Shown: positions 33,960-64,000 of the stretch, piece by piece
Layout of the letters: the number at the start of each line of letters is the position of its first letter
How positions within the stretch are numbered: the first letter of the stretch is position 1
NCBI RefSeq assembly: GCF_963664735.1
Contig: NZ_OY761553.1
Coordinates: 3,593,001-3,657,000, forward strand
Source: an uncultured Cohaesibacter sp.
Lineage (GTDB): Bacteria; Pseudomonadota; Alphaproteobacteria; Rhizobiales; Cohaesibacteraceae
Direction: 5' to 3'
DNA length: 64,000 nucleotides
Program-made: the position numbers and the translations under genes
The notes under the pieces: generated by a model
What the model was told of the DNA's origin: nothing
Seen by the model: the letters and a program-made list of their open reading frames with translations, nothing else
Databases searched by the model: none

Positions 33960-34304
33960 TTATGAATAGACGCCTGATTGGACCGACAGCAAATAGGCAA
34001 GAACTCTGTCAGATTTGCGCTCGGCAACCAAATCAAAGGCAGTTTTTCCGGCCCAACCAGGAATTGGTTGATGTTTAAACCAAAGAGCCGCGTGTTGATC
34101 AGACCCCGTCATTTCAGCTGCTATCGTGAGAATGCGCATTAATGGTCGAACTGCTTCATTCAGTTTTCGTAAGCCGGATTGCCTATAAAATGAATGTCGA
34201 TCTACACCGGTCAACAGAGCCAATTCTGTCTGAGTGATTCCAAGTCTCTTGGCGAATGCTCGTGCAGATATGATCTGATTGTTGCTATCGAAGTGCGTGG
34301 ACAT
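33960..34304 (-). CDS. Orphan Xre/MbcA/ParS-type antitoxin-like protein
   Basis: A 114-residue protein from the ATG at 34304 (MSTHFDSNNQIISARAFAKR) with AAAGG upstream. An Xre-like HTH (ITQTELALLTGVDRHSFYRQ) is followed by the C-terminal ParS/MbcA toxin-binding region (ALWFKHQPIPGWAGKTAFDL, then SDRVLAYLLSVQSGVYS). Such antitoxins normally precede a RES-domain toxin, but none is found beside it. It may regulate its own or the island's promoter or be left over from a lost pair. Confidence 0.75.
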   Translation of the reverse strand: MSTHFDSNNQIISARAFAKRLGITQTELALLTGVDRHSFYRQSGLRKLNEAVRPLMRILTIAAEMTGSDQHAALWFKHQPIPGWAGKTAFDLVAERKSDRVLAYLLSVQSGVYS

Positions 34305-34527
34305 GGTTGGGTAGCCTTTCTGCAAAGCAGGCCTTTGAAGTTCATTCGAGATAAGCCAATTCTGTGACCAGCTTTCGAGCAACTCAAGTCTCGTGACGCC
34401 CAAGGTTTGGCGGAAGCAATCATCTTGTGACAGATGGTTATTTAAATTTCTTCAGTCGGGGCAATGCTGCTCTTTCGCGGGTACGGGTTGAGCAAACTGC
34501 GGTTTTTCACTACAGACATCGCCTCCT

Positions 34528-35094
34528 TCACCGGTCAAGCAACCTGGACATCTCGCTGTCGAAGGCTTCACTGATGTCATCCGTGATTTCGTCAGAGAAG
34601 AAGGCCTTCTTCGTTGAGGCTCGCTTTTGTGGTCTCTCGAAGAGGTAGAAGGACATGCCATCTGCTGCATATGGGTTGCTTGGTTTCAATATCTGTCCGT
34701 CTTCTAGAATCGTGCACTGAATGAAATATTCCACCACCAGCATGCTGCAGGTTTCGGTCACGGTAGGAACGTAGTTGATGATCGGTAGCTGGTCGTAGTC
34801 TTCGTCGTCCTCGTCGTCTTCGTCTTCATCGCATTCATAATAAAAGGAATCATTGCTGAGCCGGGTTCCTGTTGCCGTTTCAAAAGCGACAAGGAGCTGC
34901 TGGAGACGCCGGTCTTCTTCTTCCGACAGTTCTGAGCTGAAATCGTAGTAGCCTTTGATCTTGCCTCCTTCTTCTCTTGTGGTTGCGATGATGCCCGCGA
35001 CTTCGTCAGGCTGAAGCTCTTTGCAATGGAGTGGGCCTTCAACGAAATTCTGAACGCAGATGGATGATCCAAAGCTGATGAAAAGGTCTTTCAT
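34528..35094 (-). CDS. Acidic protein of unknown function
   Basis: A 188-residue protein from the ATG at 35094 with GGAGA upstream. It starts MKDLFISFGSSICVQNFVEG, has a strongly acidic stretch near residue 97-108 (ECDEDEDDEDDEDYDQ) and a beta-rich C-terminal half (ETCSMLVVEYFIQCTILEDG). No signal or TM. I do not recognise the family. It lies between the PemK-like pair and the antitoxin-like gene on the same strand. Confidence 0.6.
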   Translation of the reverse strand: MKDLFISFGSSICVQNFVEGPLHCKELQPDEVAGIIATTREEGGKIKGYYDFSSELSEEEDRRLQQLLVAFETATGTRLSNDSFYYECDEDEDDEDDEDYDQLPIINYVPTVTETCSMLVVEYFIQCTILEDGQILKPSNPYAADGMSFYLFERPQKRASTKKAFFSDEITDDISEAFDSEMSRLLDR

Positions 35095-35355
35095 ATCAAA
35101 GTGTCTCCTGAATAAGGAAAACTGAATGGAGGGCGGCTGGCTAACGGATTGATTGGTAGAACACGGCAGGCCATTCAATGGGTGAACAATGTTAGTGCAA
35201 GCTGTTGTTGTCTCGGTCACGGCGACAGTTTGACGCCGTGACCGATGCATGATCCTCAGGCTCGATTTCGATGGGTGTTTTGAGATGCGGAAACAATATC
35301 GGTAGAAGCGAAACTGAAGCGTCGGTGTTTCCTGTCTATGCAGGAAGGCGAATTC

Positions 35356-35934
35356 TCAACCGAGCCAGGAGCGAAGATGAGGGGGCTCATCAAGTTCCGT
35401 TGTTGCTGTTTTGGTAAGGCTGATGGATGGCAGGGTAGGCTTTTTGGGGGAGCGGTCCTTTCGGCCCTTCTCGAAATAGCGGACTGCCGCCATGTCGATA
35501 TTGGCCTGAACACGAGCGCGGATGGCTTTGAAACGCAATCTGTCAGGACCGATCAGACGCCCGATGACAGGTGAGGCTGATCTGCATTTCTTGAATCCGT
35601 TATGGTCGAGGGAAACGGTAATTCGGATGTTGCTGTCAAAGACCGTTGGCGAGTTGAGACCGGCTGCGGCCATGGCAATCGGGTTGGTGATGTCAGTTTG
35701 AAGGGATGAGCTGGATTTGTTCTCGAGCCTTGATCCGTAGACAAGGGTGACAAAGCGCATCCCGCCGATGTTGCGGATATCATGGATGAGACAAGGGCGT
35801 GGTTCAGGAGCGTTTTGCTTTCGTTTGTCAGCGATCGGGAAGGGGAAGAGAATGACATCGCCCCATTTGAGTTTGTCTTTCCAGTCATGGCGGTGTTGGG
35901 CGATGTGATGATCTTGTTTGGCCTTGATGAGCAT
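35356..35934 (-). CDS. PemK/MazF-like barrel protein, paralogue 1
   Basis: A 192-residue protein from the ATG at 35934 (AAGGA upstream); a frame start at 36027 is possible. The core WKDKLKWGDVILFPFPIADK and RFVTLVYGSRLENKSSSSLQ resembles the SH3-like barrel of PemK/MazF proteins (GDIVLFPFP pattern). The stretch SPVIGRLIGPDRLRFKAIRA is shared with the gene at 36135. The basic C-terminal tail (about 40 residues) has no counterpart there. Whether it is a ribonuclease is unknown; catalytic Arg/Thr positions cannot be assigned. Confidence 0.6.
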   Translation of the reverse strand: MLIKAKQDHHIAQHRHDWKDKLKWGDVILFPFPIADKRKQNAPEPRPCLIHDIRNIGGMRFVTLVYGSRLENKSSSSLQTDITNPIAMAAAGLNSPTVFDSNIRITVSLDHNGFKKCRSASPVIGRLIGPDRLRFKAIRARVQANIDMAAVRYFEKGRKDRSPKKPTLPSISLTKTATTELDEPPHLRSWLG

Positions 35935-36134
35935 GGGCTTTTGCGTCCTTACGTTTGAGGTTTGCTTGACGCCTGTCTTTTCCTCTTCCTTTGTTTTGGG
36001 GGATCGGATCGTGCGCGGCGTCATCAAGGCTGCCGTGATCGATCTCGAATCCCTCTATTGCGCATTGTTTCCAACTCTTCCTTCTCCGGATGTCTGGCTC
36101 GCCATTGGCAGCGAGCCAGAAGATGGTCTTCGGA

Positions 36135-36671
36135 TCACCGGGCAGAGATGGCATCCCATGCAGCCTGTTGCCGCTCGAGATCATTCTCCGACAGCAGAGC
36201 TTTTGGGCCTCTTTCTCCTGGATGCGTCAACTGATGACGAGCCTCGTGAATCAGAAGGCGATCGGCCTCAATGCGTTGGGGGCTTCGAATATGTTGCATG
36301 CGATGAAGTCCCTTGTTTGGTAGCCTGCCGATCACGGGCGAGGTAATTGAAGGCAGCCTGGCATCATCATGAGGGATGAGAACCGTTCGGGTGAAATTGA
36401 CCGAGAAGGTGATTGGTTGTGAAAGGCCTGCCATTTGCAGATCCGTTTTCTCGGTGATCTGTATTTCTGAGGCGTTCGAAGATGTCGGATCGACATCACG
36501 ACCGATGCCCATCAACAGCAGGGTTTCAGAATCAAATTGAGCGATCTCGATCACGACGAAGGCGTTGCGGAGGAGTGGAGTTTCCGGTGGGTAGGCAGGA
36601 AACTGGACGATATCTCCGGGTTTGAGATCCTTGAGCCAATTGTCGGGGGATGGATTGATGGCATGGGTCAT
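36135..36671 (-). CDS. PemK/MazF-like barrel protein, paralogue 2
   Basis: A 178-residue protein starting MTHAINPSPDNWLKDLKPGD with AAGGA upstream. Like its neighbour it has GDIVQFPAYPPETPLLRNAF and, after TDLQMAGLSQP, the shared SPVIGRLPNKGLHRMQHIRS segment. Its C-terminal part is charged and helical (RLLIHEARHQLTHPGERGPK). The two genes are diverged copies, side by side downstream of the large recombinase genes and past a terminator. Confidence 0.6.
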   Translation of the reverse strand: MTHAINPSPDNWLKDLKPGDIVQFPAYPPETPLLRNAFVVIEIAQFDSETLLLMGIGRDVDPTSSNASEIQITEKTDLQMAGLSQPITFSVNFTRTVLIPHDDARLPSITSPVIGRLPNKGLHRMQHIRSPQRIEADRLLIHEARHQLTHPGERGPKALLSENDLERQQAAWDAISAR

Positions 36672-36793
36672 GTTTATGACTTCCTTCTAAAAGTGAAAAC
36701 AGACGCCTGTTGCTCTTCTGAAAGGTTTGAAAGGTTCAGATCGGCGCGGCGACATCCCGGCTGTCGCGCCAATCAGAACTGTTTTCTTTCAAA

Positions 36794-36832
36794 TAAAAAA
36801 ACACCCCTTTCACGTCAGGAAAGGGGTGTTTT
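36794..36832 (-). terminator. Rho-independent terminator after the recombinase operon
   Basis: On the minus strand AAACACCCCTTT, a 9-base loop and AAAGGGGTGTTT form a perfect 12-bp stem followed by a T-run (TTTTTTAT). It lies about 42 bp after the end of the 491-residue recombinase gene and before the PemK-like pair, so it separates two transcription units. Confidence 0.9.
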
Positions 36833-36873
36833 GTCTCACGATAGATGATCGAGCTTGGAGATAGACAAACGAT

Positions 36874-38349
36874 CTATTTGTCGGTTTCGGTGTCTTCATC
36901 CTCGTCCGGTGATGACAAGGTATCTGCCACCAATTGGTCCATCAGGGATTGGGATTCCTTGAAGAGAGTATCGTGCAAGGCATCAGCCTGATAGGCCAGT
37001 CTGGTTTTGACGTCACGTTGGGCACAAAGCGCCATTGCCATGGCAACGCCTTTTGCGCCACGTTTGCCAAGTTCGGTATGTGCCATGGTCCGTGCGATGT
37101 GAGCGCCGGTTCCGAAATGCTCCCGCCAAATCTTGGATGGACGCTTTTTGACATACATTTTTCCCAAATGATCGTGAAACACCGGGGCTTTTGCTTCGAT
37201 CAGCCTCTGTCTTTCTTGATTGAGCCATCCCGTTCCGACTTCAGGGTTGACCTCGTCAAATACCAGGGCATCAAAGAATCTGTCGAGTTTTGGATGCAGT
37301 GGCACCCTGATCGATTGGCCCGTTTTGTTGGTGGCGACATTGATTTTATATCGGCCTGTTTCGGCGTCATAGGTGATGTCGTCACCCCACCGCAATAACC
37401 CATCGGTCAGACGCAGTGGAATAAAAAGCCAAAATGCGATGACGGCTGCCTGATTGCGCAACTTGTTCTTTGTCTTTCGATGTGTGGCAGTTGAGCTGTC
37501 CTTGAGGAGTTGGCAAGCAAGTCGGTAGATATCCTTGTAAGATGGCACTCGTTCATAGCGGCCGAATTTCAGGGGGCTTTCTGCGGCTGCATCGCTTTCG
37601 AGTTTGTTGATATGCTTACTTAAGTCGGCCAGAATCTGAGGGTTGATACCAAGCTCTTTTCCGAACTGGCGCAATCGGGTTGTTGCGGTTTGCAAGGTAC
37701 GGGCACGGCACCCCTGATTCATGTGAGCGGCTTCTTCTGCAGACGGAGCCCGATCTTTTTTTGTCTGTTCAAGAATGCGTACACCTGCGGCATCGATGAC
37801 GACCGGAACGCCTGCGGTTTTGAGGTTCCAGACATACTCACTGATGACATCTTGCATACTTGCCAGCAAACTCTCTGAAAATGCTTTGCGGCCAGAAGGG
37901 CGATGGCCATTTCGCAACTGCGCCCAGACTTTTTGCCATTGGACGGGCCACTCCGTCACAGGGCTTCGAAACTTTGCTGGCTTTCTCTCTGCCTTTTTTC
38001 GCGGTTTCCTGTGGGCCTTGTCATATGCAATCGTCTTTTCGGTGATCGCTGCCTGCAGGGCTGGACCGACAACCGGATGACCCGGAAATAGGATGTTGAA
38101 CGTCGATCGTAAGGCAATCAGTGTATTCGGCGGCTCGTGCTTTGCCGAATAATCTAAAAAGTCCTGTTTGGTTGGAGCGTTTATGCCATGGAGATGGGTG
38201 TAACGCAAAAACTTGGCCAATCGCATTTTGTGTCCATCGTCCAACTGACCGAATGTTGGCATGGCCTCATAAGGAGCGAGCAACTCGTCATTGGATGGGG
38301 TGTTCGCTGCTTCTATGTTCAATTTGTCTTTCTTGTTACCATTATTCAT
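36874..38349 (-). CDS. Large divergent tyrosine recombinase, 491 residues
   Basis: The C-terminal half reads like a tyrosine recombinase catalytic domain: Arg in WLFIPLRLTDGLLRWGDD, Lys in NVATNKTGQSIRVPL, HxxR in GAHIARTMAHTELGKRG and a Tyr in KTRLAYQADAL. The His that normally precedes the Tyr box is not in place (ALCAQRD). The N-terminal 230 residues hold a SAM-like/core-binding part with basic linker (KPRKKAERKPAKFRSP). The start overlaps the stop of the 606-residue recombinase gene by 8 bases, so they are co-translated. Large paired recombinases of this sort occur in transposon-like islands. Confidence 0.75.
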   Translation of the reverse strand: MNNGNKKDKLNIEAANTPSNDELLAPYEAMPTFGQLDDGHKMRLAKFLRYTHLHGINAPTKQDFLDYSAKHEPPNTLIALRSTFNILFPGHPVVGPALQAAITEKTIAYDKAHRKPRKKAERKPAKFRSPVTEWPVQWQKVWAQLRNGHRPSGRKAFSESLLASMQDVISEYVWNLKTAGVPVVIDAAGVRILEQTKKDRAPSAEEAAHMNQGCRARTLQTATTRLRQFGKELGINPQILADLSKHINKLESDAAAESPLKFGRYERVPSYKDIYRLACQLLKDSSTATHRKTKNKLRNQAAVIAFWLFIPLRLTDGLLRWGDDITYDAETGRYKINVATNKTGQSIRVPLHPKLDRFFDALVFDEVNPEVGTGWLNQERQRLIEAKAPVFHDHLGKMYVKKRPSKIWREHFGTGAHIARTMAHTELGKRGAKGVAMAMALCAQRDVKTRLAYQADALHDTLFKESQSLMDQLVADTLSSPDEDEDTETDK

Positions 38350-40162
38350 CGATCATCTCCGCAATCAGTTCTTGGCCGGCTTGCATCTGTTCCACTTCCT
38401 TGATCCATGCGTAATAGGTCAAAACCGTATTGACCGTATCGCCGAGGCGCGTTGCAATGACCACGATCTTGTCGGGATGTGCCCGAAGTAAGAGTGAGGC
38501 CTGCCCATGGCGCATTTGTTGAGGTGTCATGGGCAAGTTGAGGACCGTGCGCGTGTAGAGAGAAAACCGCGAGCTAAAATAGCTCTCATTCATTGGCTTT
38601 GTGGCACTTTCCGGGGCTGGAAAGAAATACGGATTGTTGGCCGCGTGCTGATACAAGGGCCTGATGGTCTCAAGATACCAGTTCAAGACTCCCAGATAGT
38701 CTTGTTTGCGTGGGGGTATCTCAACCTTGATGCCCTTTTTGTTTTTGACGGTGCCCGGCGGGATCCTAAGCTTGATGGGATCCTTCTTGCTCTTGGGCAT
38801 CATGATATGCGCATCAGTGCCATGGAGCGTCAGGCCCATGGCATTTTCGCAGCGGATTGGTGCTCCGCCGATTTCGATGGCGCAAAAGGCCGCACAGGTG
38901 CCGATCCAGCGGTATTTCACCAGTTCCATCTTCGTCAGTGCACGCCCTTTTGCTTCCATTTCCATGGCAGCCTCCTGAAAGGCAAAAGGCGAGTTCAAAA
39001 AGCGCTTTGTGAGGGGGGTGGATTCAAACAAATTTTCACAAAACTGCTTATTGGCTTCGGCCATTTCATTTTCGGCTTTTTTGCCCTCATCCAGAAACGA
39101 ATTGTTTTTGAGTGCTTGTGTCAGCGCCGCAAGGGCTGTCGGGTCAGCGTCAAGCGCATGGAGGACCCGTTTGTATTTGGAAAGATATTTCCGAACGGTC
39201 CGAGGTTTTAGTTTGCGGACATCACGGTCTGGCAACTGACAGCGGGCGACCATCAGATTCCGGACCTCAGTAATCACATCGCCGCGGACGAAAATAAGAT
39301 CCCAAGGTTGACTGATGTCAGTTTTGGGATGCGCATCGAGGTACGTGCGCGTGATGGAGTTCATCGTCGAGTTGAAGAGGGTTTGCGTTTCGGGGCTGCG
39401 ATTGGCATAGGTCTTTGATACAGGATCGAAATCCTTGTCAGCCAAGACCGCATAGATCGCATCAAAGTCTTCCTGCCAATCTAGCGGGATCGGCTCCTGA
39501 TTCTGACGCAAGCGGATGGCCGAAAAGCCGATGCTTTCCGGTGGCAGATGGGGGCGAGCAAAATCATATTCGCGGAGCTTGTCAAGAAACGCCACGGCGC
39601 GGCGATAGGAATCCCGTATGCGCGTCGGGCAGTCAAGATAATTGCTGTTGGCGATGTCGTTGGTGATGTCCTGTGGTTGGATATCTACAGATCGCATGAA
39701 ATCGGCAAGGTTTCTTACCGCAACAAAATTGGTTTTGCGATAAGGGTCCAGATCCGGGATATCGGGTGCGTTGCAATCAAGCGCATCAAGTAAATGATAC
39801 CACCCATCTTTCAGGGCCCGTGCTTCTTCAAGGGCTTTATCGAGGCCCAGGAATTCTTTAAGAGGTGCCAGGATACGGCGGCGAAGCAGCTGGTGGGCGT
39901 TGTCGGTCTTGCACTGTTTTGGATCAAACCCGTCAATCGGTAAATCGATCTTCGTACGCTCTAAGGACGCCAGGATGTTCGACAAGGGCTCGTTCCGAAT
40001 TACGCCAAACCGCTTGATCGAAGATACATAACGCTTCCTGCTCTCTTCGCTGAGGTCTGTTCGCTTCTCGACATGAGCGAGCAGATCCTCAAATGTTTTG
40101 GGTTTGGGTTGATGCTCCTCAGATGCCGGTATTGGTGGCGGGGGGTCGAATAAGTTATTCAA
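38342..40162 (-). CDS. Large divergent tyrosine recombinase, 606 residues
   Basis: It starts at a TTG (40162) with AAAGG upstream. The C-terminal domain has Arg in EIGGAPIRCENAMGLTL, Lys in MMPKSKKDPIKLRIPP, the box-II Arg in MTPQQMRHGQASLLL (His replaced by Gln) and the Tyr in VNTVLTYYAWIKEV, where the usual LGH is LGD. The N-terminal 350 residues are mostly helical and likely bind DNA. It lies between the 65-residue linker ORF and the 491-residue recombinase, overlapping both. Such sets catalyse site-specific integration in trio or pair elements; the precise reaction is unknown. Confidence 0.78.
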   Translation of the reverse strand: MNNLFDPPPPIPASEEHQPKPKTFEDLLAHVEKRTDLSEESRKRYVSSIKRFGVIRNEPLSNILASLERTKIDLPIDGFDPKQCKTDNAHQLLRRRILAPLKEFLGLDKALEEARALKDGWYHLLDALDCNAPDIPDLDPYRKTNFVAVRNLADFMRSVDIQPQDITNDIANSNYLDCPTRIRDSYRRAVAFLDKLREYDFARPHLPPESIGFSAIRLRQNQEPIPLDWQEDFDAIYAVLADKDFDPVSKTYANRSPETQTLFNSTMNSITRTYLDAHPKTDISQPWDLIFVRGDVITEVRNLMVARCQLPDRDVRKLKPRTVRKYLSKYKRVLHALDADPTALAALTQALKNNSFLDEGKKAENEMAEANKQFCENLFESTPLTKRFLNSPFAFQEAAMEMEAKGRALTKMELVKYRWIGTCAAFCAIEIGGAPIRCENAMGLTLHGTDAHIMMPKSKKDPIKLRIPPGTVKNKKGIKVEIPPRKQDYLGVLNWYLETIRPLYQHAANNPYFFPAPESATKPMNESYFSSRFSLYTRTVLNLPMTPQQMRHGQASLLLRAHPDKIVVIATRLGDTVNTVLTYYAWIKEVEQMQAGQELIAEMIDE

Positions 40163-40356
40163 TTTGCTAACCTTTCTTTGGTTTGAGTGTGGTCGTTCAA
40201 ATGCACTTCCGGTCGCTTAAGTGCATGCAGGACACACACACCACTGAATTTTCCGCTGCCGATAATCGGTGGGTGTATGTATCCCGGGCGAGTCCCGGTC
40301 GTCCGGTCGAAAATGCGAATTTTGCTGTGTCTGAAGTATTCATTGCGAGGCTCCAT
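40159..40356 (-). CDS. 65-residue linker ORF in the recombinase operon
   Basis: The frame starts with ATGGAGCC inside the last codons of the HTH gene (17-base overlap) and its TGA overlaps the TTG start of the 606-residue recombinase (TTGA). This exact bridging makes chance unlikely, although no ribosome binding site is seen, so translation may be coupled to the HTH gene. The product (MEPRNEYFRHSKIRIFDRTT) is basic and unknown. Confidence 0.45.
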   Translation of the reverse strand: MEPRNEYFRHSKIRIFDRTTGTRPGYIHPPIIGSGKFSGVCVLHALKRPEVHLNDHTQTKERLAN

Positions 40357-40876
40357 CGATTACTTGCGGCAACGAGAAGATGCCGACAGCGGTCGTCGGT
40401 GCAGGGTCAGCAGATGGAACCTGTGATGGGGATGGAACGTCACCTGATTTGGACAGGTGTCGATATTTCGGCTGGGGCTTGTTGCTCTGCCAGGCAATCA
40501 CATCAGCTCTACGCCAACGTTTCCGATTCCGCGCGTTGGGGCGTTTTCCAAACGAAAGATCGATTGGCGCGGGAAAGTCTGGACTATAATTGGGTGAGGA
40601 AGGATTGGCCCAGCGATAGATGATCGATGGATCTGTCCTACCCAGATCCTCGGCTACCTGACTTGCTGTCAAGAGAGGCTTCGTCAACTCTTCCCAATGT
40701 TTTGCAGACTGGTCGGCGGCAAGCCCGAGGGCCTCAAAGACGACGGACCAGCGGGTGCCGTTGGCGCGCAACACAATGCCTGCGTCCTGTAGGACTTCTT
40801 TGAGGCTCCGTGCCGGCACACCGAAATAGGCGATCAGGTCTTTGCGGTTGATGTAACTGTCTTTGCATTTTTCCAT
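40340..40876 (-). CDS. HTH (MerR/excisionase-like) DNA-binding protein
   Basis: A 178-residue protein from the ATG at 40876 (MEKCKDSYINRKDLIAYFGV); a TTG at 40924 is the other option. The N-terminal half has an HTH-like RKDLIAYFGVPARSLKEVLQ and the middle a second possible one (TASQVAEDLGRTDPSIIYRW) with KRWRRADVIAW, typical of excisionase-type proteins. The Pro/Ser-rich C-terminal 40 residues look disordered. It leads the operon of recombinases and probably sets their expression or directs excision. Confidence 0.6.
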   Translation of the reverse strand: MEKCKDSYINRKDLIAYFGVPARSLKEVLQDAGIVLRANGTRWSVVFEALGLAADQSAKHWEELTKPLLTASQVAEDLGRTDPSIIYRWANPSSPNYSPDFPAPIDLSFGKRPNARNRKRWRRADVIAWQSNKPQPKYRHLSKSGDVPSPSQVPSADPAPTTAVGIFSLPQVIDGASQ

Positions 40877-41053
40877 ATAAAGGGAACTGGAAAAATTTTC
40901 CGAGAAACCAAAATAAAAATGCAACTTTTTAGAAATTATTTTACAAGTTATTGTATTTGTTTATGAAATTTATTGTCTGAAGTATGGGGAATGATAGCTG
41001 CAGGGGCAAACAGTTTGGCCCGGCGACAGTGAAGCAATCGCCGGGCTGGTTGT

Positions 41054-41656
41054 TTATGCAAGATGCGGAGGCACGGGATACATGATAAGGGTTGCCAGGC
41101 GTTGCCTCTCTGCCAGTGACGTTGGTTTGTTTAATACATATACACGTCGCCAACCCATCATCTCTTCTACGATTGGAATGCCGGCGTGACACCCGCGCAT
41201 GAACCTGTAGTAATATTGCGCACGCAAAAAGGCCAAGAGCGGGGCGCTGCCCGGATTAAGATTTTTGCGATCAAAAAAACGACGCAGCTTTGCAAGCGTG
41301 AGATAGCCCCGACAATCTGGAAAGCCATCAGGATGTCTATTTGCTGCGGCCAACGACAGGCCGACCAAGGGCACTTTGCGTTGGCTATCTGGATTTTTCG
41401 ACCTGATGCTATCCCCAATGCATATATGAGGGATTGGATCGTCAAGGACGATGTCGCAGGGGGCAAGGCCTGTGAGATCACCTGCTCTGCAGCCAGTTTC
41501 GAGCATCATCAGCAAAAAATCGCGTGAGGTGTCGTCGAGGCCATCAAAGGCATCAGGAGCAAGCCAGTCAGACTTGATCCGTGCGATATCGGACACCAAC
41601 TCAGCAAAGTTGGGTTCATTTCGGAATTGTTCGGTTCTGATGATCGATTTTATCAT
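41054..41656 (-). CDS. Degenerate tyrosine recombinase, catalytic domain only
   Basis: I take the ATG at 41656 (MIKSIIRTEQFRNEPNFAEL), where GGAG lies 7 bases upstream; the frame opens at 41734. From APDAFDGLDDTSRDF onwards it runs parallel to the recombinase at the right window edge: ETGCRAGDL holds the first Arg, SQRKVPLVGLSLAAANRHPD is shared, and both end in YPVPPHL or LPVPKHL. Box II is changed to APLLAFLRAQYYYRF (His lost) and no Tyr lies where the nucleophile should be (MMGWRRVYVLNKP). It has no core-binding domain. It may be a dead relic or a regulator. Confidence 0.65.
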   Translation of the reverse strand: MIKSIIRTEQFRNEPNFAELVSDIARIKSDWLAPDAFDGLDDTSRDFLLMMLETGCRAGDLTGLAPCDIVLDDPIPHICIGDSIRSKNPDSQRKVPLVGLSLAAANRHPDGFPDCRGYLTLAKLRRFFDRKNLNPGSAPLLAFLRAQYYYRFMRGCHAGIPIVEEMMGWRRVYVLNKPTSLAERQRLATLIMYPVPPHLA

Positions 41657-42393
41657 CACAATCTCCATCTTTGGTTTATCAAGAGAGAAGGATGCTTCTG
41701 CAAAAAGCAGCAGGCGATCGCTCCCTGAAAGCAAATAGGAAGATCAAGGACGGACGAAAAACGTTTATTTGGCCATGTTTTAAGGTAAATATACGTATAT
41801 TGGCGACGGAGTCGGCCAAGACAATTGGGAGTGTTATGTATTGTTTCCAACGGCCATCTATAATGGTGGCAAAAAATTCAATAAATTTGGCACATTCGTT
41901 TGGGCATCGTCGTAATCCGCCCTACATTCGCCAGTGTAACGACATCCAACAGAACCTGTTCGCTTTATTCCTGTCTTTTCGACATCCGGTAGCCAATCAG
42001 GTCATGTCTGGGCGGATTGATCTGTGATTTACATTGTTACAGTTTCAGTTGTTGGATGAGCGAGACGGGATCACCCATAATATCTATTCCGCACTTCTTT
42101 ACCGGAAATCGCTGAATTCTGCGGTTCTTTTCCCCATCTTCTCTTTGCGCCCGAAAAAAGCACGGGTCCGTTTGGGTTTGTATCGCAATCGCCGTAGTTC
42201 CTTGATGTAGGCTGGTGTGTGATCGCTGGCCGTGATCGCAATCCCGCGATCAGAGATCGGATCCCGGCGTTATGGTACCGCAATGCTCAACAATTGAGTT
42301 CGAGAGAGTGCCAATCCATGGCAGGCATGCTCATTGCCACCCATGGATGCTGTCCAATGCGGTCCTGCGGATGCTTCGCATGGATGATCTGAC
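41657..42393. other. Intergenic stretch between the recombinase cassette and the 42.4-43.8 kb pair
   Basis: No coding frame here looks convincing. It should contain the promoters of the leftward recombinase genes and of the rightward gene at 42394. I see no clear attachment site, repeat array or terminator. Confidence 0.4.
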
Positions 42394-42666
42394 ATGACGG
42401 TATCCTGCGACATGGATCCCAAATGCGGATCTGCCGATCTCCATAAAGCAGCAAAAAGCCAGCCCAAAAGCGAAACGGCGATTTATCTGGCACGCCTGTA
42501 TGCCGCTCGTGACAAGGCTGCCGTGTTGATTTCAGATGGCGAGGAATGGGTACTGCCCCATTTTGAAAGGATCCTCGCCGAGATCGAAAAGCTCGAAGAT
42601 AAGCAAAAGCGACTGGATATTGCCCTTGAAATCGCCCGCAAGGCCAAGCAACCGCGGGCAGATTGA
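42394..42666 (+). CDS. Small helical protein of unknown function
   Basis: A 90-residue protein (MTVSCDMDPKCGSADLHKAA). Residues 28-85 are strongly helical (ETAIYLARLYAARDKAAVLI and EIEKLEDKQKRLDIALEIAR), probably a coiled coil. The ribosome binding site is weak (GGATGATCTGAC). It is on the opposite strand to the rest of the island and 183 bp before the membrane protein gene, so the pair may be a unit of its own. Confidence 0.55.
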   Translation: MTVSCDMDPKCGSADLHKAAKSQPKSETAIYLARLYAARDKAAVLISDGEEWVLPHFERILAEIEKLEDKQKRLDIALEIARKAKQPRAD

Positions 42667-42849
42667 TGAGCTCGACGTAATCGACACATCCTCTCTAGCA
42701 AGAAAATGCGATCACTTTTTCTGGTTCGCTGAAATCCGCCCTAAGTCCGATTCGAGGCTCTTGGACAAGGATTGTGATCTGAACCAATCGTTCCTTCGGT
42801 CTCATTGCGAAAAACCAATGATCGGTGTGTGCCGAGGAACAGGATCAAT

Positions 42850-43803
42850 ATGAGCGATCAGAATGAGATTTTCGGGAAATACAATGATGTGTCGGTACTG
42901 ACGCGGTATGTCGATGACGCACTTTTGCAGCTGACAGACACATTCGACACGGCGGAATTTGTGTCAGCTCTTACGGCTGCAGGACAAAGAGGTGCCGATG
43001 ATGAAAAGGTGCATCAACGCGTTTTGCAGCAATGCAAGCGGGACGGTAAGATCAGGGCTGGCGCCAAAAAGGGAAAGTGGCAGAAAGCCACTGGCATCAA
43101 GACGGAAAGATCTGATTTCCTGAAGACACTCGTGATGGGCTTTTCCGTCGCTGTGTGTCTTTTGATCTGGGGAGCTCAGATCGCAATCAATGTTCGGTTT
43201 GCCTGGGAGGTTGCAGGCACTGATCCGTTCTTCCAATGGACCATGGTGACAATCATGGCGGCTCTGGATCTAGGTCGCCCCTTGTTTATGGCCAAAGGCA
43301 TGCATGTCCTCTCAAGGCGCCAGCGTCGTGAGGCTACGCTTTACTTCACGATTGGTTTTACGCTGGCGTCGGTATCATTTTTGTGCTCGAGCTCAATGTT
43401 GTCCGCGTCCTTTGCGCAGGGGCAACTGATCAATATCCGGATCGATAAAAAACAGGAGGCAATCGAGAGGCTGGTGGTTGATGCAAGAGAGTTTCGCCAA
43501 AGAGCGCTTGCTTTGCAGGCGGAGGCAGACGAAGAGTGTGCGCATGGAGGGTGCGGCCCCAAAGCCAGAAAGCTGCAAAAGGACGCCGAGGCGAATGAAT
43601 TACGGGCAAAAGACGCCCAAGATCAGCACGACCAAATGTCAAAGCAGGTGGAAAGGCCACCGGAAATGATCGCAGGTCTGGTGAATGCCTTCGAAAATAT
43701 GCATCTTTATGGTGACGATCATAAAATGCGACTGCCATATCTGCTGGCTTTTGTCATCGAATTGGCCGCGCTCTTTGGCCCCGGCCTGCTTTTGAGGCGA
43801 TAA
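42850..43803 (+). CDS. Membrane protein with central coiled coil, unknown function
   Basis: A 317-residue protein from the ATG at 42850 with AGGA 6 bases upstream. The first 80 residues are soluble and could form a winged helix (EFVSALTAAGQRGADDEKVH). TM segments are LVMGFSVAVCLLIWGAQIAI, WTMVTIMAALDLGRPLFMAK and IGFTLASVSFLCSSSMLSAS. A coiled coil of about 100 residues (RIDKKQEAIERLVVDAREFR and onwards) follows, then a last TM (YLLAFVIELAALFGPGLLLR). I do not recognise a family. It shows no sign of being a transporter; a sensor or phage-related membrane role is only a guess. Confidence 0.6.
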   Translation: MSDQNEIFGKYNDVSVLTRYVDDALLQLTDTFDTAEFVSALTAAGQRGADDEKVHQRVLQQCKRDGKIRAGAKKGKWQKATGIKTERSDFLKTLVMGFSVAVCLLIWGAQIAINVRFAWEVAGTDPFFQWTMVTIMAALDLGRPLFMAKGMHVLSRRQRREATLYFTIGFTLASVSFLCSSSMLSASFAQGQLINIRIDKKQEAIERLVVDAREFRQRALALQAEADEECAHGGCGPKARKLQKDAEANELRAKDAQDQHDQMSKQVERPPEMIAGLVNAFENMHLYGDDHKMRLPYLLAFVIELAALFGPGLLLRR

Positions 43804-44719
43804 TTGCCTTGTTGCCGATTGAATGGATGCTGTGGCACCGGTCTTGCCCTCTCATCCTTTGAAGCGGGCAATATCAGTGTCATGCGCCTCCGCTCGATCA
43901 GATGCCTTGTGATTTTCGCGAAATACTGTGGTGACGGTGCCTTGCGGTTATTCGCGTGTAAGTTCGATCCTGTCGTCATGCCAATCCAAGGCTCAGAGCC
44001 ATCTCTTGGGAAGATACGAATGACCAACAGGTCGTTTTGGTAGCTCACAATCTGAGCTCACATTGACACGTCGACTGCGCGCATCATGGTTCTCGCGCAA
44101 AACTTCGACACATTGATCACACAATGCGGCTTCGGTCCAGTTGATGCCTTGCCTTTCGGCATTTCGATTGCGTTCTTTGTTCCCGTCAACACTGCCAGTG
44201 CGACCATCACAGGCGTGACACAGGCATTTACTCCTCACATCATGATGTTGATCAGGTGATGCTGTTAGGCTCCGTGCAGATTTTCGTAAGTGTCGTCAGG
44301 AGCTTGAATATTATAGTAAAAGACGCGGTGTTCGTTACCAGACATACCGATGCCGGTCGGGTCGAAGGCTCTCTGGTAGTTTGTGATCACTGTGATGACC
44401 CAATATATGATCACATCTGCAAGGATTCAGATGTGTTTCTATATACGCGGTCCGCGACAGACACGGTTCATCTGTGATTTGGGTTTTGGAACCAGGTGAT
44501 GAAAGCAAGAAGGTAACAAAGTCCTCTTTTCTGATTGCCTCTATGCCATCCACCCGTGATTAGCTGTGGTTAGCCAAAATTTTGCTTGTTGGTGCGTCAC
44601 CTCCAAATGCCGGGTCAAAGTGAATGGCTTCTCCACGTGGTTGGTGGATGGCGAGAAGACTACGCAGACACATGTGGATCGGATCAGATCGAAGAAGAAG
44701 ATCAACTTCGAAGGGCCAT
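43804..44719. other. Intergenic stretch of about 0.9 kb left of the BREX operon
   Basis: No supported gene. A minus-strand frame (43993-44238, start GTG) has two CxxC pairs (CHACDG, CDQC) but no ribosome binding site. An inverted repeat at 44412-44435 (CACATCTG, 8-base loop, CAGATGTG) is followed by TTTCT on the plus strand and could be a weak terminator or an operator. The BREX transcript probably ends in this stretch. Confidence 0.4.
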
Positions 44720-58618: not shown

Positions 58619-59866
58619 TTAAAGAGCCAGAGCCCGTGTCAAATCTTCATGCTCAAAGGCGCTTGCCATGCGATTGATCTCGGCCGGACGCGCTCCGACA
58701 GCTCTGGCTGTCTCGCGCCAGGTTGCGGTCACGGTTGCCACTTCCTTGATAATGGCGCGAGCTTGTGCCAGCGTCAGAGCAAAATATTCTGAAGCCTCTT
58801 CCAAAAGATCAATCGAACAAGTGCTCTCGTCGAGATCGATGTTGGTTGACAGAACCCGCGCCCTGACATCGGCGGGTACCGGATTGAGGTCATATGCAGG
58901 AGAGAGTGACCAGCCAGATTTTCCAGACCAAAGAAAGCCGTGGTTGCGTAGATGATCGTCCACGTTGGAGATCATCACATTGAAGACAACGCGACGATAG
59001 AGCGCCTGCGCATCGGTCTTTCCCTGAGCGCCATGTTCGGCAAGAACGTCAACGATCTCGGGATAGCTGCCGCGCTCACCATCCTTGGCACCCATCATGG
59101 CCATTGCCGATAAAAAGGGAATACGGACTGTACCATTGCGATCAAAGCGACACGACAACATCACCTTCTTGCCCGCGACATCGACGAGTTTATGCGTTGG
59201 TGTGACGATGCCAGCATCTTCTGCCAACCGCAGGGCGATCTCTTCCCACGTCTCTATGCTGTAATCATCAGTCTCCTTGGGAAACTTGGCGATGGAGAGG
59301 TGGCCATGTTGGTCGACCACCGACGCCTTGGGCCGGGCACCGCCCAAGGAAGAGCCTGGGGCAAAGATGATTTGAAGGTCATCGTCTGTTTCTTCATCCA
59401 AGAGAATTCGTTCGGTAATCTGAAGCAACCGGCCAAGTTCGATGATCGCAGGCACTCCCGTTCGGATTGGTGCCTGAAACGTGGCATCGCCAACCCAACG
59501 AAATCGTAATGCGCCAAGCCGGGTCTCGTCGGCGACACCAAGGAGATAGTCGCTCTCGGTGAGCGTTCGGACGGTTCGACCTTCTCGTTCGGCAAGGCGA
59601 CGCTCAGAACGTTGCATCAATCGGCGGCCCCATGTGTCGGGTGCAGAGTCCCCGATAGAACCGAAGGTTGCGAGCCCAGCAGGTGGTGCGAAAGCGCCGC
59701 GACTCAAAGCAAGGGCGGGCTCCAGAGAAAACCTGGCGGGATCATTTAACCACGCATCGTCGTATTCAAAAAGAATGGTCTCTGTACCGCGAACACGATT
59801 GCTCCGTGCCAATCCAATCTGTTTTGTGCTGCCAGCTAGATCAATGTGGACTTCGAAGTCAGCCAT
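58619..59866 (-). CDS. hipA: HipA-family kinase toxin
   Basis: A 415-residue protein from the ATG at 59866 (MADFEVHIDLAGSTKQIGLA); the longer frame start overlaps hipB. The Gly-rich loop is GSSLGGARPKASVVDQHG, the catalytic loop MISNVDDHLRNHGFLWSG and the metal site SLSPAYDLNPVPADV, so the kinase residues of HipA are present. HipA phosphorylates a tRNA synthetase and can stop growth. Its gene overlaps hipB by 8 bases, and the pair lies upstream of the BREX operon on the same strand. Confidence 0.9.
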   Translation of the reverse strand: MADFEVHIDLAGSTKQIGLARSNRVRGTETILFEYDDAWLNDPARFSLEPALALSRGAFAPPAGLATFGSIGDSAPDTWGRRLMQRSERRLAEREGRTVRTLTESDYLLGVADETRLGALRFRWVGDATFQAPIRTGVPAIIELGRLLQITERILLDEETDDDLQIIFAPGSSLGGARPKASVVDQHGHLSIAKFPKETDDYSIETWEEIALRLAEDAGIVTPTHKLVDVAGKKVMLSCRFDRNGTVRIPFLSAMAMMGAKDGERGSYPEIVDVLAEHGAQGKTDAQALYRRVVFNVMISNVDDHLRNHGFLWSGKSGWSLSPAYDLNPVPADVRARVLSTNIDLDESTCSIDLLEEASEYFALTLAQARAIIKEVATVTATWRETARAVGARPAEINRMASAFEHEDLTRALAL

Positions 59867-60194
59867 TGCGGGACGATCCTGATAATCGCCTGAGATGGGC
59901 GTGTTTCGGCAGGTCGGCACTGGCCAGAGCTTGTCCAACGCTATCATTGCTGATGTCGGCGATTTGGTTAAATCCATCCAGCAGTCCGAGAGCTTGCAAA
60001 ACGCTGGCATAGATACCAATGCTGACGTTGGTGTCGCCAGCTTCTACCCTTTGCAAGGTAGAACGAGAGGTGAAGGCGCGTTCTGCAACAACTGCCATGG
60101 GCAGACGTCTGCGTCGGCGGGCGTCATGGATGTCAGCCCCAAGCTTGCGCAACGCACGGCGTACGGCGGCAGGAGGATTGTGTGGTGTTGGCAT
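59859..60194 (-). CDS. hipB: HipB-like Xre antitoxin
   Basis: A 111-residue protein with AAGG 7 bases before its ATG. The Xre HTH is ALRKLGADIHDARRRRRLPM, then AVVAERAFTSRSTLQRVEAG with DTNVSIGIYASVLQALGL. It neutralises HipA and should repress the hipBA promoter. It overlaps hipA. Confidence 0.88.
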   Translation of the reverse strand: MPTPHNPPAAVRRALRKLGADIHDARRRRRLPMAVVAERAFTSRSTLQRVEAGDTNVSIGIYASVLQALGLLDGFNQIADISNDSVGQALASADLPKHAHLRRLSGSSRNG

Positions 60195-60323: not shown

Positions 60324-61091
60324 CTATGCAACTGCAACTGTGTCATCAATCCCTGCTTCTTCGTAGAGATCCTTGGCGAGCCAATCATAGCCGAAGAAAT
60401 CTTTCACCTGATCAAGACTGTCGCAAACCTTGGCCGAATAGCAATCGCGTTCGCCGTCCCTGGCTATGTAGTCAATGCGGCGGCAGATATATTTGCCGCC
60501 TTGGGTCATGTAAAGGCCATAGCTCCTACAACGATCGCGTTGGCCATTATAGTCGAGACCTGCAGCCTGATTGTCAGAGCTTGCAACACTCGCAAGACAC
60601 TGGCCAGTAAAAAGCAAGCTCGGAGCATCATCAACCTTGAGTTTGTAGGTCGCCACTTCTGAGTTTTCATCGACATCAATGTCGGTTACCTGCTCAATGA
60701 TCAACTTGCTATAATCGACGTCTGAAAATGCGCAAGGCAGTTTGGGCGAGAGCTCATCGATGTCCATTTCAGACCCGTTGTCGTCGATGATCAACACTCC
60801 TTTCAAAACCCAGACGTCGCCTATACCATCTGTTGTTGTTGTAAGGGAGGCCGGATCGTGATCGTCGTAACCAAAGTACTCTGAATAGGTTACTTCTATA
60901 CCTTCAAGTTCTGAGACTTTGGATGCCCAACCCAAGACACGAGGGATCACGACATCCCTGTAGACCTGCTTCTGAGCGTCCCATATTGTGCTGTGATGTT
61001 TAAATTCGTCCATAACCTCGTGGAATTGGCTCTGGTTCCAGTCACCGCGGGCAAGCATTTGTTTGAATTCTTCGAAAGAGATTTGTTTCAT
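60324..61091 (-). CDS. Protein of unknown function
   Basis: A 255-residue protein, starting MKQISFEEFKQMLARGDWNQ with AGGA 8 bases upstream. The N-terminal 50 residues are helical, the remainder beta-rich and acidic (IGDVWVLKGVLIIDDNGSEM and IDVDENSEVATYKLKVDD). Five cysteines occur in the last 100 residues. No signal or TM segment. I do not recognise the family. It lies between the rep-like gene and hipBA and ends at a terminator. The 200 bp to the rep-like gene are AT-rich. Confidence 0.6.
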   Translation of the reverse strand: MKQISFEEFKQMLARGDWNQSQFHEVMDEFKHHSTIWDAQKQVYRDVVIPRVLGWASKVSELEGIEVTYSEYFGYDDHDPASLTTTTDGIGDVWVLKGVLIIDDNGSEMDIDELSPKLPCAFSDVDYSKLIIEQVTDIDVDENSEVATYKLKVDDAPSLLFTGQCLASVASSDNQAAGLDYNGQRDRCRSYGLYMTQGGKYICRRIDYIARDGERDCYSAKVCDSLDQVKDFFGYDWLAKDLYEEAGIDDTVAVA

Positions 61092-61295
61092 CGTTTTGTC
61101 CTATCCCCTGAATTTCCGCCGGAGCAGTTGCAGAATTATTCCTGCAATCAGGAAGTAGGTCCGTTTCGATTCAAACAAAAAATAATTATTAATATTTTTT
61201 TAAATTTTGAATGGCGCTTTGATTTATAATGATTTTTTCGGATTAATTGTCTTGTCTCTACGATTTTTCAGGCGAGGCAGGCTCTAGTATGGGTT

Positions 61296-62057
61296 TTATT
61301 TTGCTGCCAATGCGGAGCTTTTGGCGTCAGGCTGGTAATTTCTGATCGAAATGACGATTTTTTCGTTCTTGTTTAAATATTTTTTCTTCTTCACGGAGTA
61401 TATAAGATCGTATCCCATGATCTTGTTAAGTCTTGAAACGGACCTTTTCACCTTTTGAGTGACCGCTGGGTTTCTGGAAATTCCATATTCTTCCTTTAAT
61501 TTATCTACATTTAAGACAAATTGCTTGTTGCTCATGTTTTTTACGATTGTTGCCTTGAGATATATTTTGATATCGAAAATATCTGTCATCTCGACAATAT
61601 CCTGCATCTCGACATATGCATAATTTGATGGGGCAATCATCTCCGCCTTGATGGTTTCCTGCACATCCCATTCAAGGTAATCGACACCCTCTTCTTCCAC
61701 AAAGCGAATGGTATGAATCAGAGGGTCGCTTTCCAATTCGGCCCGTCTGTTGCAAATGTCGATGAGGACGTGAATTTTATTGATCAGCTCGCTATTTGAA
61801 CGATAGGCTGCAAACCCCGATGCTTTTCGCAGGAAGCCCAGATAGATCCGATAGGGTGGGATCATATCTCGCCGGAGATTATGACTGCTGAACCAAAGCA
61901 ATGCGATTAATATGCGGGTAGCTGGCCCATTTAGGCCCGTCATGGAATGGATGATGTTGCAAACCATGCCGGGCAATGGATAACTGGGTTTGATATTCAG
62001 CTCTTGAGCGACGTGTTCCAGCGAGGTTGAGTATAGTGATTTATTGCGTGATGCCAT
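61296..62057 (-). CDS. Plasmid-type replication initiator, Rep_3/RepB-like
   Basis: A 253-residue protein from the ATG at 62057 (MASRNKSLYSTSLEHVAQEL); a GTG at 62081 is possible. The second half resembles the C-terminal winged helix of Rep_3 initiators: EMTDIFDIKIYLKATIVKNM, then FVLNVDKLKEEYGI, and VKRSVSRLNKIMGYDLIYSV with KKKKYLNKNEKIVISIRNY. The N-terminal part (GPATRILIALLWFSSHNLRR) could be the first winged helix but is less clear. Five 21-bp iterons lie 350 bp upstream, in keeping with a Rep that binds repeats. Homology is by eye and not proven. Confidence 0.5.
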   Translation of the reverse strand: MASRNKSLYSTSLEHVAQELNIKPSYPLPGMVCNIIHSMTGLNGPATRILIALLWFSSHNLRRDMIPPYRIYLGFLRKASGFAAYRSNSELINKIHVLIDICNRRAELESDPLIHTIRFVEEEGVDYLEWDVQETIKAEMIAPSNYAYVEMQDIVEMTDIFDIKIYLKATIVKNMSNKQFVLNVDKLKEEYGISRNPAVTQKVKRSVSRLNKIMGYDLIYSVKKKKYLNKNEKIVISIRNYQPDAKSSALAAK

Positions 62058-62338
62058 GTCTTTGTTCCGAATTCTTGTCACTCATGCTACATGGGGTCGT
62101 TTCAGTGGCAAACAAAACAGTATTTACATCCTGAACCGGAAAAAGCTGCCTTGCTGCGAATCCGAGAAGATGTGTCCTCAAAAGCCTCTTTCTCCAAGAC
62201 ACATTACCTAGTTAGGAAATGAAGGTGCCATGTAACAATTACCAAGGACAAGAACACATCCTTTCTCATCGCTTCTGTGTATTCTTATATATTCGGTTTG
62301 ATTCTGAACATTTATTAAATCATTTGATGAGTTGAGAT

Positions 62339-63001
62339 TTAACAATAGATCCAAATGTATACGGAAGAATTGGTCACAATTTTCTTACTTTCTGTCACAG
62401 TTTTGGAGTATTCGATCAAGCTTTTTAGCCATTGGATCAATCTTTTTTCAGAACGGATCAATCTTTTTTCAGAATGGATCAAACTTTTTTCAGAATGGAT
62501 CAAACTTTTCCGCGTAGGCCTTATTTTTAGACCAGGCTTTCGGTATTGCTGAATAATCGGCATGTAGTATGTTCTTCGGATCAGAGGAGCTCGTGAAGGT
62601 CGCAAACTATTTTCGTTAATTCTAACATGGTCAAAATTCTCTGAACGAATGACTCTGATGCAGTCTGACGGTGTTTTCACCGATATAAAGTGAATGCTGA
62701 TGAATGTGCCGTATATTCGAAACTCATACCACCATGTCGCCGGACCATTCCCTTTCTCGATTAGATGAAGAACGGGATGGCAATCAGTATGAACTGAACG
62801 CACTATTTCGAGATGTTGTTCCACTGTTCGGATCAGAAGAGGTTTGCCAGCTGCATCGAATATGTACCCGAGGAGGTGGTCTTCAGAAGTTCGAAAGCGG
62901 ATGACACATGCGTGACCATGTTGGAACCGAATTGGTAAGATTTCCGGTTCACAAATAGATCGCCAAAGCCGCCAAATGAGAACCGTCTTTTCACGGATCA
63001 A
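62339..63001 (-). CDS. Putative protein whose C-terminus spans the iterons
   Basis: A 220-residue frame opening at a TTG (63001) with AAAAGG about 11 bases upstream. The first 150 residues read like a folded protein (ACVIRFRTSEDHLLGYIFDA, then HPVLHLIEKGNGPATWWYEF). From residue about 165 it turns into heptads such as SLIHSEK and RLIRSEK, simply the translated 21-bp iterons. The N-terminal part may be a real gene that ends in iteron DNA, or the whole frame could be fortuitous. Family unknown. Confidence 0.35.
   Translation of the reverse strand: MIREKTVLIWRLWRSICEPEILPIRFQHGHACVIRFRTSEDHLLGYIFDAAGKPLLIRTVEQHLEIVRSVHTDCHPVLHLIEKGNGPATWWYEFRIYGTFISIHFISVKTPSDCIRVIRSENFDHVRINENSLRPSRAPLIRRTYYMPIIQQYRKPGLKIRPTRKSLIHSEKSLIHSEKRLIRSEKRLIQWLKSLIEYSKTVTESKKIVTNSSVYIWIYC
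62413..62509. repeat. Five tandem 21-bp direct repeats (iteron-like)
   Basis: Units start at 62413, 62434, 62455, 62476 and 62497, an exact 21-bp period. The best units read GGATCAAWC-T6-CAGAAY; the first is degenerate and the last is cut after GGATCAAACTTTT. A period of two helix turns, an AT-rich stretch beside it (62260-62350) and the nearby rep-like gene make an iteron-type origin likely. No clear DnaA box is seen. The repeats overlap the 3' part of a minus-strand ORF. Confidence 0.85.
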
Positions 63002-63073
63002 CGACGGGAGTGCCTTTTTGCAAGGAAATGCTACCGATTATGGTGTTCTGGCCTTGGAGTTAAGGGGGCGGGG

Positions 63074-64000
63074 TTATTCCAAATGTTTGGGCACGGGAAG
63101 TACGATAAGATTGTGCAAGGCCAGTTTGTCCTCAAGGGTCATGTCATCACCATAGAGTTCGCGATCGCGGATGGCCTTGACGCTGTGGCCCATCAATTCG
63201 CCACGGTCGTCATTGGGCAGTTGAACCTTTTTGAGGCGAGATTCAAACGAGTGTCTTGTGCCGCCAACTGTGTGCTTCTCGGAAGGCAGCAGGTCTCTTT
63301 CCCTGAGAACCTTGTTTATCGTGTTGGAATAGTTGCTGTTGCCACGATATTTTGGAAATCCTTCAGGGTGCCGTTTGGCTGCTGCCAGAGCGACACCGAC
63401 GAGGGGTACCATCCTTTGAGAAGCTGTATTCTTAACCTCACGACACATGTCTCCTTCTTCCACCTTGATATGAAGGTGCGGGATCGGATGATCCAGCACA
63501 ATGGCATGCGGGGGTAAATTTGAAATCTCACTCTGACGGCACCCTGTTTCGATGGAAATCAGCAGAATGTCGATCGCTTCGTCATTGATGCCATCCAAAG
63601 CACCAGGGGCAAACCATTTCTCCGTCATCCAGTCTACCGGGATCTCGAGTTTCCGGTTGGGTTTTTCATAACGATCCTTCTTGATGCCAATGCCCTGATA
63701 AGGCTTGGGCGGTTCAGTCATTCCGATGCTTTCGTAATAGGCGCTTAGCATCGAACGCATGAGAATAAAATCCTTGTTGGCAGTAACAGGTTTTGTTTTT
63801 CCCGAAGAGACTTTGTTCTGCCAGAACATCTTGTGTTTTTGGACGGCGGCGGCGTCGATTTCTGATACGAGGATGTCCTTGCTTCCGATTGATTTCATCA
63901 GGTTTCGGACCGCCTTTTTCCTTGGGTTACGCCATTTGCGCAATTGGTCGTCATTCTTGTGCTTGTTGTCATGAGCGCAGAATTCTTCAACGGTGCCCAC
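63074..64000 (-). CDS. Tyrosine recombinase/integrase, partial (runs past the right edge)
   Basis: At least 308 residues; the frame is open at the window edge, so the start is probably outside. The core-binding part is present (VRNLMKSIGSKDILVSEIDA, KPVTANKDFILMRSMLSAYY). Catalytic residues: Arg in SIETGCRQSEISNL, Lys in CREVKNTASQRMVPL, Arg-His in GGTRHSFESRLKK (the His three before Arg is Gly), and GHSVKAIRDRELYGDD with the Tyr. Its C-terminal half runs parallel to the degenerate recombinase at 41054. It may form the right-hand recombinase of the island or of a neighbouring one. Confidence 0.85.
   Translation of the reverse strand: MGTVEEFCAHDNKHKNDDQLRKWRNPRKKAVRNLMKSIGSKDILVSEIDAAAVQKHKMFWQNKVSSGKTKPVTANKDFILMRSMLSAYYESIGMTEPPKPYQGIGIKKDRYEKPNRKLEIPVDWMTEKWFAPGALDGINDEAIDILLISIETGCRQSEISNLPPHAIVLDHPIPHLHIKVEEGDMCREVKNTASQRMVPLVGVALAAAKRHPEGFPKYRGNSNYSNTINKVLRERDLLPSEKHTVGGTRHSFESRLKKVQLPNDDRGELMGHSVKAIRDRELYGDDMTLEDKLALHNLIVLPVPKHLE

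Follow-up and report, generated by a model that had tools for sequence, protein, structure and literature searches.

A putative replication initiator gene and an adjoining array of 21-bp direct repeats, located near the right end of the analyzed window (the whole stretch of 64,000 nucleotides), probably constitute the plasmid-type replication origin of an integrative element; the probability of this reading is estimated at about 65%. In the best reading, the element is an integrative one with exchangeable cargo, here a BREX defense system and HipBA, and its replication module is putative. The arrangement itself is of a known kind, while the candidate replication protein, as far as sequence comparison reaches, is without recognizable close relatives.

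Repeat array and its sequence context

The array consists of five direct repeats of 21 bp with the core GATCAANNTTTT, located at 62412-62516 on the plus strand. Tandem Repeats Finder places it at 62433-62509, with 3.7 copies, 94% match, and a score of 133, and direct reading finds an exact 21-bp period across all five strong units (62412-62516). Both bear out the five tandem repeats of the original prediction, to which two degenerate units of the form GTCACANTTTT are added in the same register (62370-62411, plus strand). The degenerate units are recognized by their matrix score, which places each among the highest 0.2-0.4% of window positions, and by the retention of all seven units in the three genomes compared, i.e., the genome analyzed here and its relatives G015 and G017. 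With the core matrix, which was trained on the same five strong units that it scores, these units reach 18.9-21.1, and the runner-up site on both strands of the window reaches 14.7. The GATCAA and TTTT positions of the core are invariant in all 15 strong units of the three genomes.

The array lies upstream of the candidate gene, around 0.3 kb from its start and 2 kb from the start of the integrase gene. An open reading frame of the minus strand (62339-63001) runs across the repeats, and its single frame is not kept in G015 and G017; therefore, the repeats are treated as non-coding. The possibility that they encode heptads was rejected: one shorter frame is open in the three genomes, but the changes at second positions are about as frequent as those at third positions. 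Several equally spaced direct repeats beside a putative initiator gene, the arrangement by which iteron origins are recognized, are thus present in the sequence.

The AT-rich stretch named in the original prediction can be found at 62270-62509, where the AT content in 60-bp windows is 65-72%, and the part beside the repeats (62270-62411, likewise 65-72%) is the candidate opening region. The stretch is not exceptional, however: 72% is likewise attained by two 60-bp windows within the candidate gene, and the maximum of 80% falls in a window downstream of this gene (61190-61249). The DnaA box TTATCCACA, with up to two mismatches allowed, is absent from 62000-63100, and a box with a single mismatch at 61501 falls within the candidate gene. 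Such a box is not required by all iteron origins.

Candidate initiator and its distribution

The candidate initiator gene (P0001, 61296-62081, minus strand) begins with a GTG start and encodes a protein of 261 amino acids. Its assignment as a putative initiator relies on conservation, dN/dS, and the structural match to RepE54, the initiator of mini-F. The protein shares 94% identity with its counterpart in G015 and 93% with that in G017. The dN/dS values in the three pairwise comparisons are 0.37, 0.33, and 0.23 (few substitutions, no significance test), and the gene is, judged by these ratios, under purifying selection. Among its neighbors, the integrase gene int475 is more constrained (0.12-0.14), and the gene of the conserved protein p255 gives 0.22-0.48.

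The sequence of the protein does not lead to any known family. None of the Pfam and NCBIfam profiles was matched above the cut-off, the Pfam family TrmO_N being reached at E 0.15 only, and the best PHROG match is phrog_2514, 'DnaD-like helicase loader', at E 0.017. The Rep3_N profile (PF01051) is not among the Pfam matches of the protein at E <=1 and has no match anywhere in the genome. An hhalign comparison with ten Rep3_N proteins of the order, in which the query profile is effectively one sequence, scored 15.1, which falls among the values of 100 column shuffles (up to 23.9) and is close to the 14.3 of the reversed control. Membership in Rep_3 by sequence was therefore rejected, since Pfam, NCBIfam, PHROGs, the sequence search of the PDB, and hhalign all failed to support it. 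No homologues were found in 72,556 plasmid and 50,697 phage records even at E 10, and no match in viral contigs and genome contigs scanned by short exact peptide patterns, which reach mainly close relatives. No partition gene was recognized among the arm proteins scanned with the HMM libraries.

The structural comparison gives a weak indication. AlphaFold single-sequence models of the whole protein and of residues 150-261 have pLDDT values of 36 and 40, respectively, and for both of these low-confidence models RepE54 is the top match of Foldseek among 350,542 PDB chains, with E 0.79 for the whole protein and 0.078 for residues 150-261. For the model of residues 150-261, 43 of the best 50 rows are RepE54, a co-crystal series presumed to be RepE54, or a Rep-DNA complex, many of these rows being repeated entries of a few proteins; for the whole-protein model, RepE54 accounts for 7 of the best 50. 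The order of helices and strands fits two winged-helix domains, in models whose confidence is low (pLDDT 36-40, best Foldseek E 0.078-0.79). Mini-F RepE, solved as RepE54 and co-crystallized with iteron DNA, belongs to the Rep_3 family, whereas no sequence similarity between it and the 261-aa protein was found in the Pfam and PDB sequence searches. The Rep_3-like character claimed in the original prediction is consequently backed by no sequence comparison and is weakly favored by the models, in which the match to RepE54 is a lead toward a Rep identity and not a proof of it.

The protein is narrowly distributed. It was found in three of the 20 genomes of the family (18 of them in the genus, the one analyzed here included), and the same three, i.e., this genome, G015, and G017, are the carriers among 297 genomes sampled from the order. 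In a sample of 385 genomes of the class, searched at E 0.01 and with G015 and G017 not among the matches, four passed: the genome itself and three others. The latter cover short stretches at E 0.001-0.007, with a stop in one of them, and were judged to be chance matches. The exact two-unit pattern of the repeats follows the gene: it is present in the same three of the 297 genomes of the order, with three occurrences in each, and the backward control pattern is absent from the matches listed for these genomes. Iteron matches in other replicons, whose absence the original prediction had named as a refuting condition, did not appear: the plasmid records contain none, no match lies outside the genus in the order genomes searched, and the sole exact match in viral contigs (L049) is located inside a terminase-like gene and was set aside as chance.

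A second protein of the module, p255 (60324-61091, minus strand), is conserved and co-occurs with the rep-like gene; it has no Pfam or PHROG family, and its one NCBIfam match is far below the cut-off. Three elements (this one and those of G015 and G017) have the rep-like gene, p255, and the repeats together beside the integrase gene, so the original statement that gene and repeats lie together holds for one conserved module. In the elements of G009 and G004, these three components were not found, and int475, p606, and p491 are kept. The similarity of G009 to the window resumes only at 62739, within the region beside the repeats, which suggests that the module was lost there. The count of five elements leaves out a sixth, more distant set (G004:C7, with p606 at 47% and an integrase-like protein at 31%), in which no match to the rep-like gene was found within the 20 kb examined. 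A piece of the left edge of the internal arm was also observed in G012 (L056 668-1321), without p606 and without the rep-like gene.

Ends, arms, and cargo of the element

At the right end of the element, the 3′ terminus of a tRNA-Ser(CGA) gene located 75,004 bp leftward is found again, and these two att copies enclose the window. The core of attR, identified by its match to the tRNA-Ser 3′ end, is at 64563-64577 beside int475, a tyrosine integrase gene (63074-64501, minus strand) which extends beyond the window end at 64000. The integrase matches DUF6538 above the cut-off and Phage_integrase below it, and its in-window part matches a PHROG integrase at E 1.7e-18. The 12-mer CTCTCTCCGCCA has two occurrences only in the 4.94-Mb genome, and these are the two element ends. 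The first boundary, 33904-64577, drawn from the conserved arms, was replaced by the interval from tRNA-Ser to attR. Recombinases on both sides of the island had been proposed in the original prediction; the genes at 36.9-41.7 kb, if these were meant, turned out to be internal, the left att copy being at the tRNA-Ser gene 10.4 kb before the window start.

The same organization is shared by related elements. The right end is common to five of them, with similarity stopping sharply, and the DNA just within the left end is also shared. The element of G004 is represented by its right end alone, and counts of both ends refer to the four others (this genome, G015, G017, and G009). In all four, the 15-bp att repeat CTnnCTCTCCGCCAT is present at both ends, with nn equal at the two and identical to the dinucleotide of the element's own tRNA-Ser: CT in this genome, TC in G015, and GT in G017 and G009. 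The right att copy of G009 differs from the left one at one base outside nn. The anticodon of the tRNA-Ser at the left end is CGA in this genome, GCT in G015, and GGA in G017 and G009. Paired TTGCTACAC sites are located inside attL at +76/77 and +88/89 and before attR at -122 and -110 in the four two-ended elements, and the latter pair also at the right end in G004. Because the att copies and the TTGCTACAC pairs recur at both ends, we infer that int475 serves as the border integrase, with the TTGCTACAC pairs as its arm sites. All four two-ended elements thus have an integrase and carry the 3′ end of a tRNA gene as a direct repeat at their two borders, as expected of tRNA-integrated elements. 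The att-to-att lengths are 75,004 bp here, 32,160 bp in G015, 114,156 bp in G017, and 99,810 bp in G009. The interval of G017, in which an additional att copy with homology to the left end lies internally, probably consists of two elements in tandem. Neither a relaxase nor an oriT was recognized among the proteins of the arms and the BREX region scanned with Pfam.

The att-to-att interval may be composite, as judged from comparison of the genomes. The search for an empty site was negative: in 13 relatives, the 1.2-1.5 kb downstream of the tRNA-Ser(CGA) gene matches neither the element interior nor the right flank, with the exception of G003, in which around 150 bp of the left end follows the gene. 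The matches to the right flank are displaced, occurring in five genomes at ~70% over one gene and ~157-171 kb from tRNA-Ser(CGA). Finally, 2.3 kb near the left end (L074 11358-13690, window -8642 to -6310), inside the element's own left end and beyond a transposase-like gene, match at 87.6% the DNA just outside the right end of the G017 element. It is for these three reasons that a composite interval is considered, and since the att-to-att unit is not clean, the origin reading is held slightly less firmly. By eye, the DNA downstream of tRNA-Ser(CGA) begins differently in the 13 relatives (L083-L089, L100-L103, L105-L107), and this locus is perhaps an integration hotspot. Another empty-site search, with the flanks joined at a wrong left border, was discarded, since its matches were mostly to an IS-like end repeat and to gene relatives. 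This repeat of ~81 bp (33831-33911) abuts the left edge of the internal arm and is seen in several genomes of the genus.

Comparison of this element with those of G015 and G017 reveals two conserved arms with differing DNA between them. The internal arm (33904-44271) contains the recombinase-like p491 and p606, the excisionase-like p194, the integrase fragment p226, and p178, p223, p240, and p332. The proteins p606 and p491 are present in five of the five compared elements, and the smaller arm genes are not all present in each. The cargo between the arms in this genome (44272-60281) is a BREX-1 set (BrxL, PglZ, PglX, BrxC, BrxB, BrxA), a WYL-domain protein, HipA, and a HipB-like HTH protein, the last two at 58619-60194. 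Both BREX and hipBA are therefore carried inside the tRNA-Ser att-to-att interval, as the original prediction had held. The arms of G015 meet directly, without cargo between them, and those of G017 flank ~60 kb whose right edge carries a HipBA copy. In G015, genes for an RT-Cas1 fusion, a Cas10-type protein, a RAMP protein, and Cas6 (L005 12901-16194, L006 1130-4677) are found in the segment that separates tRNA-Ser from the arms, and CRISPR-like repetitive stretches are seen by eye in the same element.

The recombinase-like operon of the internal arm (36874-40924) is formed by p194, p606, and p491, in a layout that recalls the trios of GInt and SE islands. Matches to p606 occur on 11 plasmid records, apparently of Rhodobacterales by name, six of them covering >=80% at 25-37% identity, and relatives of p194, p606, and p491 stand side by side on two of the four plasmids inspected. 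An example is the small Rhodobacteraceae plasmid pSC52_7 (L068, 14,858 bp), which carries p606/p491 homologues, a replication initiator, and ParA. On a Limimaricola plasmid, a p194 homologue is preceded, ~1.4 kb upstream, by a five-copy 21-bp array (L069 15749-15855), and no gene next to the array is obviously that of an initiator. The protein p226 (41054-41734, 226 aa) shows 38% identity to the C-terminal portion of int475, has counterparts in G015, G017, and G009, and is possibly an old second integrase.

Interpretation and comparison with known systems

The reading of the module as an origin is favored by RepE54 leading both structure searches, by the invariant core and the constant 21-bp spacing, and by the published precedents of SGI1 and pPDL2. 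It is weakened by the lack of any HMM match above the cut-off and of plasmid or phage homologues, by the low pLDDT, by the absence of a partition gene among the arm proteins scanned and of a nearby DnaA box, and by the two related elements that are devoid of the module. The array is upstream of the gene, a possible operator position, and the protein, with its weak and non-Rep sequence matches and low-confidence models, could be a winged-helix transcription regulator acting on its own gene or on the neighbors, without any replication. This explanation is unlikely: the seven in-register units over 147 bp exceed what a typical operator needs, the best match of both models is RepE54 and not a regulator, and the array stands ~0.3 kb from the gene start and 2 kb from that of the integrase. 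The repeats might instead serve as arm-type sites of the integrase whose gene is near them, with no origin involved, but separate paired TTGCTACAC sites occur at nearly fixed distances from both att copies, and two elements have the integrase without the array, which makes such a role very improbable.

A further explanation considers the module as the decayed, non-working origin of a plasmid integrated long ago. The compared elements are seen in the integrated form only, two of the five are devoid of the module, and the open reading frame beside the array is in a different frame in the genome analyzed here. The gene, however, is open and apparently under purifying selection in three genomes, the repeat cores are invariant, and the elements occupy tRNA-Ser genes with three different anticodons, each with att repeats that match, so decay is a rather improbable account.

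In the favored reading of an origin that serves an integrative element, int475 would excise the element as a circle. The 261-aa protein, with its two winged-helix-like units, would bind the 21-bp repeats and open the nearby AT-rich DNA, and the circle would replicate until it is reintegrated or passed on. A replication role for the excised circle is suggested because the module is located beside the integrase, is under selection, and shows a paired distribution of gene and repeats. The module would be an accessory for the free stage, dispensable for chromosomal residence, since two related elements persist without it.

With its initiator unrecognized by profile libraries and its integrated form alone observed, the element is of the same kind as pPDL2 and SGI1. 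The account of pPDL2 of Sphingobium fuliginis describes an alphaproteobacterial plasmid with iterons and an initiator that integrates at a seryl-tRNA 3′ end (PMC3516476, in part). Its integrase with an attP matching the seryl-tRNA 3′ end and its iterons upstream of the initiator gene resemble the present arrangement, whereas pPDL2 lives as a plasmid and the present element is seen integrated only; the sections concerned also report a RepA resembling RPA and Rep-3 domains, a DnaA box, a replicating mini-replicon, and an oriT, by which pPDL2 goes beyond what is seen here (PMC3516476). Salmonella genomic island 1 (SGI1) is described in excerpts of two reports as an island in the chromosome that encodes an integrase and a Rep protein and has iteron-like direct repeats, from which it replicates after excision (PMC7826253, PMC7433901). 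It differs in its insertion at trmE, according to part of a third report (PMC8409611), where the present element uses tRNA-Ser. According to the same excerpts of the first two reports, its RepA is IncN2/N3-related with four 16-bp repeats downstream of repA, in contrast to the seven 21-bp units upstream of the gene here, and it depends on a helper plasmid, whereas no helper is known here (PMC7826253, PMC7433901).

The GInt and SE islands, as portrayed in portions of two reports (PMC5385486, PMC10214605), likewise combine several recombinase-like genes and a small DNA-binding partner with variable cargo. In the present element, by contrast, the trio lies away from the border, where a separate integrase gene is found, and tRNA-Ser 3′ ends form the att copies. 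GInt elements carry a ginABCD operon at their border; here the recombinase-like operon lies in the interior, and int475 occupies the border. A full-text literature search, judged by titles and abstract openings and conducted without the genus name as a term, returned no published description of the element.

A broader proposal, which is tentative and has somewhat less than even odds, is that the protein is the first member of a new initiator family, so far seen in this genus only. It would drive a family of tRNA-Ser integrative plasmids, 32 to 114 kb from att to att. Whole defense systems (BREX and HipBA in this genome, a type III CRISPR system with RT-Cas1 in G015) would be exchanged on these plasmids, around a recombinase trio in the interior and an end module for replication and integration. 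Confirmation would make the initiator an additional family, one that the present profile libraries miss. The analysis ties a large defense island to delimited att ends and to a candidate replication start of its own. As a result, the spread of the BREX, HipBA, and CRISPR cargo in this group becomes testable, with regard to whether the circle copies itself before transfer and what the absence of the module means in some relatives.
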